A DNA stretch of 37,112 bases from an uncultured bacterium (GTDB lineage: Bacteria > Patescibacteriota > Minisyncoccia > Phycocordibacterales > UBA918). Shown one piece after another: positions 1 to 34,877 of the stretch. Both the position numbers and the translations under genes were made by a program. The notes below the pieces were generated by a model that saw nothing but the letters and a program-made list of their open reading frames with translations, was not told where the DNA came from and ran no database searches. The DNA is taken from the NCBI GenBank assembly GCA_950073265.1, contig CATMPJ010000008.1:1-37112 (forward strand), read 5' to 3'. The stretch's first letter is position 1. Each line of letters opens with the position of its first letter.

Positions 1-846
1 AAAAAAGGACACGAACTAAAAGATTCAGAAGAGATGGTGGTCAGGTCTTTTGAAAAAGAAGCTAACTTAATGTTAAGGAGTGCTGTTGAGTTATATATTG
101 AGAGTTGGAACTTTGCACGAGAAAGTAAAAAAGAAGAAGCAATTCGCGCATACTATTTAGTAAAAACCCTACAGGCTTTCTTTAAGAGAAACAGAAATTC
201 TGAAAAGTATTGTGACTACCCACAGCAAGGAGATATCTTGAATATTGTAGATATTAGAAAAGAGTTGAAAAATCTGACCACCACCTTCTTCTTTTTTGCC
301 AAAGGCAAAAATCTTCAAAAAGATAAAGATGTCATACATCTGACAAAATCATACACGACATTACTTGATGAAGCTCTGAAGCATATGACACCTAGGGAAC
401 GATTTGCTTTAGGTGAATCGTATCAACAGTATGTAAATACAAGTGATTCAATACATGGCTATGCAGGATCTCCCGTATTTGAAATTGATGACGTTCAAGA
501 ATTTATGAAAGTACTTTATGGTGGTGTTTATATACTGGCGGTTTATACTCAAAAAAATCTCACAAAGATTGGATCTGGTGTATTACCTTGCCAGGGTCTA
601 CTTGATGCTTTGGATGGAATTGAGTCAGATGATTTTAACGGAGACTTGAAAATTGATATTGGAGATAGTGTTTTAGTAAAGAGACAAATTAAGGCAGTGG
701 TTAAAAATGTTATGTTCTCAGATTATGGTTGTGCAAGGTACGAAGTAGAGTTTAATGATAAAAGAGGGGACGCTAGCTGGTCTTTTGAGAAGACTTTGTA
801 TCTACGAAAAGATTTGCAGAAATTACCTACAATAGTTACAGAGTAG
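1..846 (+). CDS. Hypothetical protein, 5' end outside window
   Basis: The reading frame is open to the first base of the window, so the true start probably lies upstream; the first in-window ATG is at 34. About 281 residues are visible. The N-terminal half is rich in charged helical segments (many Lys and Glu), with a Phe-rich stretch (TTFFFFAKG) in the middle. The C-terminal 80 residues look like a small beta-rich domain (LKIDIGDSVLVKRQIKAVV). I see no signal peptide, transmembrane helix or catalytic motif that I recognise. The gene is AT-rich like the two genes after it and unlike the pilus block, and it is followed by the first copy of the 48-bp repeat, so it probably belongs to the same accessory patch. 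Function unknown. Confidence 0.6.
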   Translation, partial: KKGHELKDSEEMVVRSFEKEANLMLRSAVELYIESWNFARESKKEEAIRAYYLVKTLQAFFKRNRNSEKYCDYPQQGDILNIVDIRKELKNLTTTFFFFAKGKNLQKDKDVIHLTKSYTTLLDEALKHMTPRERFALGESYQQYVNTSDSIHGYAGSPVFEIDDVQEFMKVLYGGVYILAVYTQKNLTKIGSGVLPCQGLLDALDGIESDDFNGDLKIDIGDSVLVKRQIKAVVKNVMFSDYGCARYEVEFNDKRGDASWSFEKTLYLRKDLQKLPTIVTE

Positions 847-940
847 TGTAACTTTTTTGAATACTGATAAATCTGTCACTTTTGTCACTTTTTCTTGCGC
901 ACGAGGAACTATCGAATTGGTTTATTAATATTAGCTAACT

Positions 941-988
941 GGTCAAGCCCAGCTTGACCGCCCACGGTTCTAGCTCGAGACAGCCCGC
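941..988. repeat. 48-bp intergenic repeat, copy R1
   Basis: R1 matches R2 (2865-2912) at 43 of 48 positions. It starts with a perfect 8-bp inverted repeat, GGTCAAGC-CCA-GCTTGACC, and continues with GGTTCTAGCTCGAGACAGCC. It lies between the unknown first gene and the OLD gene. Half-copies of its CTAGC-CGAGACAG part recur at 1161-1174 (13 of 14 identical) and 2823-2832 (10 of 10). No protein-coding potential is apparent. Confidence 0.85.
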
Positions 989-989
989 A

Positions 990-1190
990 ACGGCCGGCCG
1001 GAAAGCGAAAGCTTTCCGGCCGTTTGCCTGTTACGCGAGAGTAAGGGATTCGAAAGACGGAAGCGGTATACAAGACGAGTGAAGCGAGGGCTTGTCGCTG
1101 AGTCAGGGTCGTGAAAAATTTCGTAGAAATTTATTCCTGACCGAATCCCGCCGTTTAGAGCTAGCACGAGACAGTATATTTCGTGCTGGT
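990..1190. other. Hairpin-rich intergenic segment before the OLD gene (possible structured RNA)
   Basis: This covers most of the 361-nt gene-free gap at 847-1208. Perfect stems are: 12 bp at 995-1006 with 1011-1022 (GAAA loop, followed by TTT); 4 bp at 1031-1034 with 1041-1044; 8 bp GGGATTCG at 1045-1052 with 1142-1149, enclosing 5 bp at 1070-1074 with 1091-1095 and 6 bp at 1102-1107 with 1136-1141, the latter containing 7 bp at 1116-1122 with 1126-1132; and 7 bp at 1163-1169 with 1181-1187, just before the -10 box of the next gene. The first stem could terminate a transcript. The rest could be an RNA or cruciform-forming DNA. Strand is not determined. Confidence 0.6.
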
Positions 1191-1196
1191 TTTGTT

Positions 1197-1202
1197 TATA
1201 AT
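1197..1202 (+). promoter_or_regulatory. -10 box of the OLD gene (leaderless type)
   Basis: Perfect TATAAT with 6 nt between it and the ATG at 1209. Transcription would start at or next to the start codon. No Shine-Dalgarno sequence is present. The box supports 1209 as the start rather than the upstream in-frame TTG at 1092. Confidence 0.7.
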
Positions 1203-1208
1203 GAGTGT

Positions 1209-2819
1209 ATGAAAATAACTAGGATAGAGGTTGAGAATTTTAAATCTATTGAAAAATACGATTTTGGTATTTCTGACTTCAATGTTTTTGTTGGTCAAAA
1301 TAACCATGGAAAAACTAATTTTTTTGAAGCATTGAGTTGGTTTGATTCTGGAAAAGTAACAGAAAAGGATTATCGAAATTACGATAAGCAAAATGAAGTC
1401 AAGGTAAGGGTACATTTTGAGGGTGCTACTGAAGAAATTGCAAGCTTACCTGACGGAACATACAAAACTAAAATGCAGAATACTATAGGTGAAAATGATG
1501 CTTTTATAGTAGAGAAAACTAGTAGTAATGAAAAGCGGGTTCTAATAGTTAGCGGCGAAACTGTTCCTAATCCAACTGGTTTTGATGCAGCACTTAACTA
1601 CTTTTTACCAAAGACTGTATATGTAACCACAAAGCAGAGGTTGAATGAGGTTGCAGGATATAAGTCGAAGTCACCTATTGCAGAAATGCTGGGTGACGTA
1701 CTTAAAGACATGGTTGATAATGAACCGAAGTACCAAGATTTTTTGAATATGTTTGACAAGTTGTTTAACACCAGCGAATCAATATTTAGAGTTTCTGTAA
1801 ATGATCTCCAAGAAAGAGTGAGTTCCTACTTGTCGAAACAATTTGCTGAAGGTGCGGAAGTGACTTTCAGGATAGAAAATCCTGCTGTTGAAGATATGCT
1901 TAAGAAGTTTGAAACTGAAGTTGATGACGGTATCAAAACAAAGGCTGAAGAGAAAGGAGACGGAATGCAAAGGGCTGTTATTCTTGCGATTGTCCAGGCC
2001 TACGCTGATTTTAGGAGAGACAAAGGTATTGCAAGAAGTTTTTTGTTTTTGATTGATGAAGCAGAATTACATCTTCATCCAACAGCGCAAAGGTCTTTAA
2101 AGAACGCTTTGAGAGATATAACCGATAGTGGTGGTCAAGTGCTCATAAGTTCCCATTCCCCAATTTTTGCTAATGAAAACTTTGATAATCAAAAGATTTT
2201 TAATGTAGAAAAAGTGAACGGGAATTCAAAAGTTATCGAAATTACAACACCTCAAGAGCAGATGGATTCCATTTATAACTTATTAGGAGGAAGTCCGAGC
2301 GACATACTGTTACCTAATAACTTTATTATCGTAGAGGGCAAATCAGATTATGAGTTTTTGATGGCAGTTAGAAAAAGATTTTATGCTGACAATCCAAGGT
2401 GTATGGGTATAAAAATATTATTCGCTGGCGGTGATCATGAAAGAGCTGCTTCAACGATGTACAGAGTGCACGATGCGTATACTCCACTCGCAACAAATAG
2501 TGTTTACAGAGACAAGATAGTCTTTTTATTAGATACACCAAGTGCTGAAAAACAAGCAGGGTACGATACTTTCCGAGAAACGTACCCAAGTCTAATTGAA
2601 GATGAACATTTACATATTTTACCTGAACCAGCAATTGAGATGTGTTACCCAGAGCCTTACACAAAAACAGCTGATGAGGTTACTGGAATGACTGATGCTG
2701 GTGTGAAAGTTTCTCTTGCAAGAGAGGTTGGTGAAAACATAACTATGGAACAAATAAGAGAGTCAATGCCAACTATAATTACACTATTTGAACAAGCCAT
2801 TGAAAAATCGTATGAGTAA
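1209..2819 (+). CDS. OLD-family ATPase with C-terminal TOPRIM nuclease domain
   Basis: 536 residues. The N-terminal domain is an SMC/ABC-type ATPase: MKITRIEVENFKSI opening, Walker A GQNNHGKT at 29-36, a signature-like GDGMQRA near 255, Walker B FLIDEAELHLHP near 280, and the H-loop ISSHSP. The C-terminal part has TOPRIM-like features: IIVEGKSDYEF near 372 (metal-binding Glu) and FLLDTPS near 440 (Asp). This order is that of OLD (overcoming lysogenization defect) nucleases, which act in anti-phage defence. GajA of Gabija has the same layout, but no GajB-like helicase lies beside this gene, so a stand-alone (class 1-like) OLD is more likely. The gene is AT-rich, has its own promoter and is flanked by repeats, all consistent with recent acquisition. 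Confidence 0.85.
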   Translation: MKITRIEVENFKSIEKYDFGISDFNVFVGQNNHGKTNFFEALSWFDSGKVTEKDYRNYDKQNEVKVRVHFEGATEEIASLPDGTYKTKMQNTIGENDAFIVEKTSSNEKRVLIVSGETVPNPTGFDAALNYFLPKTVYVTTKQRLNEVAGYKSKSPIAEMLGDVLKDMVDNEPKYQDFLNMFDKLFNTSESIFRVSVNDLQERVSSYLSKQFAEGAEVTFRIENPAVEDMLKKFETEVDDGIKTKAEEKGDGMQRAVILAIVQAYADFRRDKGIARSFLFLIDEAELHLHPTAQRSLKNALRDITDSGGQVLISSHSPIFANENFDNQKIFNVEKVNGNSKVIEITTPQEQMDSIYNLLGGSPSDILLPNNFIIVEGKSDYEFLMAVRKRFYADNPRCMGIKILFAGGDHERAASTMYRVHDAYTPLATNSVYRDKIVFLLDTPSAEKQAGYDTFRETYPSLIEDEHLHILPEPAIEMCYPEPYTKTADEVTGMTDAGVKVSLAREVGENITMEQIRESMPTIITLFEQAIEKSYE

Positions 2820-2864
2820 AGAGCTCGAGACACTATAAAACTGTTTAGGAAATGTTGTTGAAAC

Positions 2865-2912
2865 GGTCAAGCCCTGCTTGACCGACCATGGTTCTAACTC
2901 GAGACCGCCCGC
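2865..2912. repeat. 48-bp intergenic repeat, copy R2
   Basis: Second copy of the element at 941-988, 43 of 48 positions identical, with the same inverted repeat GGTCAAGC-CCT-GCTTGACC. It lies between the OLD and SET genes. A half-copy, GCTCGAGACA, lies at 2823-2832, directly after the OLD stop codon. Confidence 0.85.
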
Positions 2913-2924
2913 TATCGGAATTTT

Positions 2925-33788: not shown

Positions 33789-33833
33789 AAAAAGTTCCAA
33801 CATCGTCCCAGACGGCCATCTGCCGAACTTTTT
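33789..33833. repeat. Cassette-border repeat B1
   Basis: The first 28 nt (33789-33816) are identical to 34590-34617. The sequence opens with AAAAAGTTCCAACATCG and continues TCCCAGACGGC. B1 also forms an imperfect hairpin: AAAAAGTTC (33789-33797) with GAACTTTTT (33825-33833), with CAGA (33809-33812) and TCTG (33819-33822) inside. Confidence 0.8.
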
Positions 33834-33847: not shown

Positions 33848-34591
33848 ATGAAAAGAGTTTTTTTAATCACGGGAGCCTCGGGTGAGCTTGGTAAAAGTTT
33901 TGTAAAAAATATTGATTCAAAAGAAATAGTTTATAAATTTTCTCGTAGTGAATTATCTGATAATTCAGATAATAAATGTTTTATCCTAGATCTTTTGGAA
34001 GAAGAAAAAGTCAAAGAAGTGCTTGAATTAACTGATCTTGATTCATTTAACGAAATAGTATTAATACACACTGTTGGTAAATTTAAATTTGAGAACGATG
34101 AATCTAAGATTGAAGACAAGGACGGGGATGGTATCGATGATGAAATATATAAAACAAACGTTATTACGACAAAAAATATTCTTAAGTATGTGAAGCAAAA
34201 TATCAATGGCAGAGCTGAGATAAAGGTGTGCGTATTTGCTTCCGTTAGTGATAAATACAGTATTCCATATTGGAGCTCCTATACGCGAGCTAAAAATATT
34301 TTACGTGGATACCTTCAAACACTTTCAGAGAATCAGATTGTTTCAGCTCTGGTGGTTAATGTTTCTACAGTAGATACTGGGAATGAGAATTTATTGAGAC
34401 CGAATGCTGATAAAACTTATTGGTTAAAACCTGAAGAGATTGTCACTAGAGTTCTGCCTGAGCTAAATGATTTAGATGGTTACACTGAAATAGATATCAT
34501 TAAAGAACATCCGGATTTTAAAAAAGACTATTATATTAATCATGAATCAATTTTAGAAAAATGGCACTCAGAAATGAGAGAGGTGGAGTAA
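33848..34591 (+). CDS. Short-chain dehydrogenase/reductase (SDR)
   Basis: 247 residues, typical for a classical SDR. Nucleotide-binding TGASGELG at 8-15, LIHTVG in place of NNAG, catalytic Ser in ASVSDK (132 or 134) and Tyr145-xxx-Lys149 (YTRAK). Unusual is an acidic EDKDGDGIDDE at 89-99, which has the spacing of a calcium-binding DxDxDG loop, in a region normally variable among SDRs. Strongly AT-rich. The last two bases of the stop codon are the first two of the next repeat copy. Substrate unknown. It looks like a mobile, self-contained gene unit. Confidence 0.82.
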   Translation: MKRVFLITGASGELGKSFVKNIDSKEIVYKFSRSELSDNSDNKCFILDLLEEEKVKEVLELTDLDSFNEIVLIHTVGKFKFENDESKIEDKDGDGIDDEIYKTNVITTKNILKYVKQNINGRAEIKVCVFASVSDKYSIPYWSSYTRAKNILRGYLQTLSENQIVSALVVNVSTVDTGNENLLRPNADKTYWLKPEEIVTRVLPELNDLDGYTEIDIIKEHPDFKKDYYINHESILEKWHSEMREVE

Positions 34592-34617
34592 AAAGTTCCA
34601 ACATCGTCCCAGACGGC
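34590..34617. repeat. Cassette-border repeat B2
   Basis: 28 nt identical to 33789-33816, 801 bp downstream. Its first two bases are part of the TAA stop codon of the SDR gene (34589-34591). The right hairpin arm of B1 is not conserved here. Confidence 0.85.
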
Positions 34618-34842: not shown

Positions 34843-34877
34843 AGTGTCCTCCCGCGAGTAAGTTATCACAACTCCAC

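Follow-up and report, generated by a model that had tools for sequence, protein, structure and literature searches.

Most integron gene cassettes hold one gene, whose stop codon is followed by a recombination site; they assemble into arrays, carry mixed adaptive cargo and are free of recombinase genes. Satellites and tycheposons that target tRNA genes use tyrosine recombinases, the gene for which is usually carried by the element itself. The ssrA islands of Dehalococcoides employ a serine recombinase, DsiB, and occupy the 3′ end of a structural RNA gene as tandem elements, about half of which lack the integration module and have been proposed to move via their neighbours (PMC3146451). These islands use the single site ssrA and have a 20-bp direct repeat, several genes and a six-gene module (PMC3146451). 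The SCC/SCCmec elements and the Enterococcus cassette chromosome (ECC) are much larger, target rlmH and depend on the CcrAB large serine recombinases (PMC6222049).

The DNA analysed here, referred to as the window, is a stretch of 37,112 nucleotides and the entire contig C8 of its genome. An earlier note on the window had described a 48-bp repeat on both sides of an OLD-family nuclease gene and had suggested the modular gain and loss of single genes.

Anatomy of the OLD cassette

The two repeats, R1 (941–988) and R2 (2865–2912), are identical at 43 of 48 positions, which reproduces the value given earlier. The best other 48-mer match to R1 on either strand of the window reaches 25/48, and the chance expectation in the window of the 22-nt end pattern of R1 and R2 is 0.00. 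The two half-copies described in the earlier note are likewise present, at 1161–1174 (CTAGCACGAGACAG) and 2823–2832 (GCTCGAGACA). The repeats do lie on either side of OLD but are not a simple flanking pair. R1 and R2 are the 3′ halves of two copies of a ~94-bp right end (RE), at 896–989 and 2820–2913, of which the first terminates a previous element and the second the OLD cassette. A profile of 31 RE relatives, with both window copies among the 31 sequences, scores these copies at 75.7 bits (E 8e-23) and 73.3 bits (E 4e-22), respectively, and detects no third copy in the window; the same two are the only RE copies in the whole genome (703,588 bp, 97% complete). Of the half-copies, the one at 2823 forms the 5′ core of RE2, and the one at 1161 falls within a separate left-end element, LE (60.7 bits with the LE profile). 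It is this short element, not R1, that forms the left boundary of the OLD cassette. The features of the locus are as follows.

1–846, forward strand: open reading frame cut by the contig edge, the last gene of the element ending at RE1 (Pfam DUF5677, E 0.003, below cut-off)
874–889, forward strand: direct repeat TGTCACTTTTGTCAC just 5′ of RE1
896–989, forward strand: RE1, right attachment end of the previous element, including R1, with a terminal CCGC at 985–988
990–1151, forward strand: B unit, comprising a terminator-like hairpin, a tRNA-Ser 3′-end copy in inverted orientation, a structured middle and a tRNA 3′-end copy in direct orientation
1149–1205, forward strand: LE, left attachment end of the OLD cassette, CGC followed by CGTTTAGAGCTAGCACGAGAC...
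1209–2819, forward strand: OLD-family nuclease gene, the cassette cargo (PADLOC Old, E 1e-62; Pfam AAA_15, E 6e-32)
2820–2913, forward strand: RE2, right attachment end of the OLD cassette, including R2, with a terminal CCGC at 2909–2912

LE contains a terminator-like palindrome (1161–1189) followed by a run of T's and by TATAAT at 1197–1202. The PADLOC match covers residues 1–409 of the 536 residues of OLD, and RE2 starts immediately 3′ of the OLD stop codon. Two CNCGAGAC cores, at 2824 and 2898 in RE2, are typical of the RE architecture, in which the cores are spaced by 74 bp and the terminus reads GCCCGC or GGCCAGC. OLD is the sole gene between LE and RE2, and a recombinase gene is absent from the cassette. 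Read from the sequence, LE, promoter, OLD and RE are one cassette of ~1.76 kb, whose limits are LE, at about 1150 and after a CCGC, and the CCGC that closes RE2 (2912). This anatomy is solid. The layout of repeat, promoter, OLD, repeat and next gene that had been described earlier therefore stands, except that the next gene, SET, is not shown to be a cassette because no recognisable RE follows it; SET was considered as a third cassette and rejected, neither RE nor LE being found for it by the profiles.

Exact matches of RE and LE to viral contigs were absent, and neither RE nor the B unit matched an Rfam family. Elsewhere in the window, an identical 28-nt repeat, AAAAAGTTCCAACATCGTCCCAGACGGC, occurs at 33789–33816 and 34590–34617 with a spacing of 801 bp, and a 71% copy lies at 34876.

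Genomic context of the preceding element

The direct repeat TGTCACTTTTGTCAC also precedes many RE of larger elements, some with an integrase gene, and another RE-linked element (L079) likewise has a DUF5677 gene 5′ of its RE. In the genome of the window, a gene for a 430-aa serine recombinase lies at the left end of contig C3 with terminase genes alongside (G000:C3:7028–8320), and a tRNA-Ser(gct) gene with LE is found further inside C3. The window has its right flank in common with three relatives (L126, L059 and L091), in which it is the flank to the right of tRNA-Ser(gct). In one of these (G008, L126), the genes left of tRNA-Ser(gct) on C3 and those right of the cassette region of the window bracket one tRNA-Ser(gct) site; by this synteny, the left end of C3 and that of C8 probably lie opposite one another within one insertion. 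If the two contigs join in this way, as we infer, RE1 would probably be the far, right-hand end of the element with this serine recombinase at tRNA-Ser(gct), split between C3 and C8. A Germane-domain gene was rejected as a flank marker, as it is not conserved. The segment G000:C3:3179–8320 (L157) is a prophage-like block with genes for a DNA methylase, the small and large terminase subunits and a serine integrase.

Distribution and insertion at tRNA genes

The repeat is widespread in related genomes rather than confined to this locus. RE is present in 18 of 38 genomes of the genus by a strict pattern and, by profile, in 25 of 49 genomes of the family and 73 of 297 of the order, which are Kaiserbacteria-like Patescibacteria. 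The named relatives that carry LE are Kaiserbacteria and other Patescibacteria. A 19-nt LE core is also matched exactly in two cyanobacterial genomes (L104, Scytonema; L111, Calothrix), probably by chance.

Among the loci fetched from relatives, LE begins at the exact 3′ end of tRNA-Ser genes in L057, L058, L059, L064, L075, L092 and L093, and it lies directly behind another RE, as an RE|LE array junction, in L059, L064, L149 and L155. RE is also found behind tRNA-Gln genes (L068, L072, L082, L090 and others). Cassettes begin precisely at tRNA-Ser or tRNA-Gln 3′ ends. The terminal bases of RE agree with those of the tRNA, being CCGC where it is Ser and CAGC where it is Gln, and tRNA and RE share a core of just 4 bp. 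Aligned by eye, RE 3′ ends resemble the T-loop and acceptor strand of a tRNA (GGTTC.AA..C...AC...CCGC), a likeness that would account for the insertion of one cassette behind another. Among the relatives' loci compared, none provided an exact empty site at strain level, and neither excision nor a circular cassette was seen; the unoccupied tRNA-Ser(gct) of L093, a site of the same isotype, serves for structural comparison only and is not a strain-level empty site.

Further structures are observed behind tRNA genes. B units occur at 990–1151 of the window and in L060, L066, L076, L088–L091, L120–L122 and L144, preceded by genes for tRNA-Ser, -Gln, -His, -Tyr, -Val, -Phe and -Gly. They consist, in order, of a ~50-nt hairpin, an inverted 3′-end copy of the same tRNA, a structured middle that is conserved (GGTATACAAGACGAGCGAAGCGAG) and, often, the tRNA 3′ end again in direct orientation. 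In the window, the inverted tRNA-Ser 3′ end lies at about 1035–1054 and the direct tRNA 3′ end closes with CCGC at 1148–1151. The middle is 95% identical between the tRNA-Ser-type unit of the window and the tRNA-Gln unit of L089, with the arms following the respective tRNA. At tRNA-Ser genes without an adjoining LE (L080, L091, L093, L095 and L125), a terminator-like hairpin is followed by a short inverted copy of the tRNA 3′ end.

Cargo of the cassettes

The open reading frames before RE encode 56 proteins, among which there are four related pairs, one pair being the same gene fetched twice. In 35 of the 56, no more than 30 bp separate the cargo stop codon from RE. Matches were obtained to OLD, AbiTii, AbiJ N-terminal/PDC-S32, APH, MazG, NUDIX, nucleoside deoxyribosyltransferase, glyoxalase/bleomycin-resistance-like, CYTH, YdjM and DUF5677 proteins, and many of the cargo proteins are unknowns. 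The gene before the repeat differs nearly every time, including at syntenic sites: tRNA-Ser(gga) has the same flank genes and different cargo in L056, L060 and L067, a tRNA-Gln(ctg) site has different cargo in L068, L082 and L090, and L058 and L062 share a right flank with different cargo between them. In L061 and L126, from two species, related APH genes follow an LE, each at a different site. This comparison across species supports the suggestion of the earlier note that single genes, here one for a defence nuclease, are gained and lost as modules; the mobility of the cassettes themselves we infer.

A candidate recombinase and the symmetry of the attachment site

The same RE, together with LE, bounds larger elements that encode a large serine recombinase of 400–500 aa. 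Two of these have the recombinase between the ends: a complete 12.7-kb element (L179) comprising tRNA-Trp, LE, the serine recombinase, a ParB/methyltransferase protein and RE, and a 6.7-kb element at tRNA-Ser (L079). Large serine recombinases are common in these genomes. There are 21 pairs of an RE and a 400–500 aa large serine recombinase within 15 kb, of which 20 are on opposite strands. One geometry, opposite strands with RE on the 5′ side, accounts for 17 of the 21 and is broken by a few pairs (P 1.2e-7, a value that takes four arrangements as equally likely and applies to an arrangement noticed in the data before it was counted). Recombinases longer than 500 aa form two pairs with RE, with 0 in the shared arrangement; they were rejected as the mover, as they overlap many tRNA genes but not with RE or LE ends.

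A serine recombinase was not found in 10 of 40 RE-bearing genomes, and across whole genomes the occurrence of the enzyme and that of RE show hardly any association (about 30/40 against 25/40). The argument therefore rests on physical linkage. It is complemented by the rejoined RE–LE junction (attP), which is dyad-symmetric exactly about the crossover dinucleotide CC/CA. Symmetry extends to 0.53 of 22 positions at this centre, compared with 0.30 ± 0.02 for shuffled LE, a contrast that is inflated because the counts use related sequences, and with at most 0.41 at other centres.

Two side observations follow. Genes for large serine recombinases of ~500–590 aa overlap tRNA genes antisense with their 3′ ends in L162, L164, L165, L166, L168, L172, L173, L174 and L176; the tRNAs are Glu, Ala, Asn, Tyr, Gln and Leu, and in this clade such enzymes apparently make up a family of serine integrases that target tRNA genes. 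In L074 (4231–5235), a reverse transcriptase gene (RVT_1) near the RE of a serine-recombinase element is a possible defence gene.

Proposed mechanism

Our main reading, to which we assign a probability of about 0.7, is that these units are non-autonomous single-gene cassettes that use the att sites of serine-integrase elements directed to tRNA genes and depend on an enzyme supplied in trans for their movement. A serine recombinase would join attP (RE–LE) with an attB provided by the 3′ end of a tRNA or of another RE, with strand exchange at the central dinucleotide. Where a cassette lacks a recombinase gene, it would borrow the enzyme of a resident element in trans. The predicted circle junction of RE2 and LE is ...CTCGAGACCGCCCGC + CGTTTAGAGCTAGC..., and since RE re-presents a target, cassettes would pile up into short arrays.

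Alternative explanations

The strongest alternative, which we nonetheless regard as unlikely, is that the units are decayed remnants of serine-integrase elements inserted at tRNA genes, deleted down to one cargo gene and two ends, with cargo that varies by ancestor and not through mobile single-gene units. Full elements with the same ends do exist, and some genomes have RE with no detectable recombinase. The units are, however, very uniform, usually with one gene, their own LE promoter, a stop codon a few bases from RE and intact LE and RE. The related APH genes that follow LE in two species, at different sites, and the exactness of the RE|LE array junctions also argue against decay.

Considerably less probable are integron-like cassettes with folded attC-like sites, on which a tyrosine recombinase, IntI or else the chromosomal Xer, would act to move them. 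The plan of integron cassettes is indeed seen here, with a single open reading frame and a 3′ recombination site, arrays and variable, mixed cargo, and one Xer-like gene is present in most genomes. The earlier note had suggested looking for a tyrosine recombinase, but such an enzyme is not the likely mover: the only PF00589 protein of this genome is Xer-like and adjoins rpsO, away from the cassettes, and a large serine recombinase is likelier. No PF00589 match was obtained in RE-bearing G153 (a single contig), G245, G317 or G319. As it is neither adjacent to the cassettes nor detected in several RE-bearing genomes, the chromosomal Xer was rejected as the mobiliser. RNAalifold on 31 RE yields 7 pairs at −0.9 kcal/mol, with one pair changed on both sides; RE thus has no conserved hairpin past a four-pair stem. 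With no conserved fold and with the Xer-like protein as the only PF00589 member, an attC fold acted on by IntI was rejected as well. The core common to tRNA and RE, at just 4 bp, likewise speaks against this explanation.

Least probable of all is that homologous recombination after DNA uptake swaps the cargo, with RE and LE as short homology and terminator/promoter modules, for although LE resembles a terminator plus promoter, such exchange does not predict exact tRNA 3′-end junctions, target-matched end bases or attP symmetry.

Implications

Returning to cassettes moved in trans by serine integrases, a broader and more tentative proposal, on which we are slightly more doubtful than confident, is that a lineage-wide pool of promoter-bearing, recombinase-free single-gene cassettes, which enter behind tRNA genes and behind other cassettes, may be the serine-recombinase counterpart of integrons, with the integrases of resident prophage-like elements moving them in trans. 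The tiny genomes of Patescibacteria would thereby gain a modular route to swap single adaptive genes, such as those for OLD, AbiTii, AbiJ-like, NUDIX, APH-like and glyoxalase/bleomycin-resistance-like proteins. If the in-trans model is true, integron-like gene collecting would operate on a different enzyme class. The RE profile offers a simple handle for new defence genes and other cargo beside tRNA genes. No published description of these cassettes was found in the open-licence papers searched.

Comparison with known systems

Similar to integron cassettes, the units described here combine a characteristic layout with a mix of cargo and the absence of a recombinase from the cassette. The main differences are that no IntI was found, RE is not of the attC type, the cassette has its own promoter, and insertion is at tRNA ends. 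With the satellites and tycheposons the cassettes share insertion at tRNA genes and defence and niche cargo, whereas the recombinase of those elements is a tyrosine recombinase and usually self-encoded. Elements mobilised by serine integrases have an attP with dyad symmetry about a short core common to attB, as is seen here, and a recombinase between their ends, as in L179 and L079 but not in the OLD cassette.

In chemistry and site choice, the closest systems are the Dehalococcoides ssrA islands and SCC/ECC. The cassettes resemble the islands in the proposed serine recombinase, the 3′ end of a structural RNA, the tandem arrangement and the proposal of help in trans; they differ in the use of many tRNA genes, a ~4-bp core, a single gene, the promoter in LE and an RE of ~94 bp. 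SCC/ECC elements likewise have large serine recombinases, dyad-symmetric att sites, insertion at the 3′ end of a gene and variable cargo (PMC6222049). The OLD cassette has no recombinase gene, and the two recombinases ccrA and ccrB of SCC/ECC are replaced in the present system by one type of 400–500 aa, with insertion at tRNA genes in place of rlmH.
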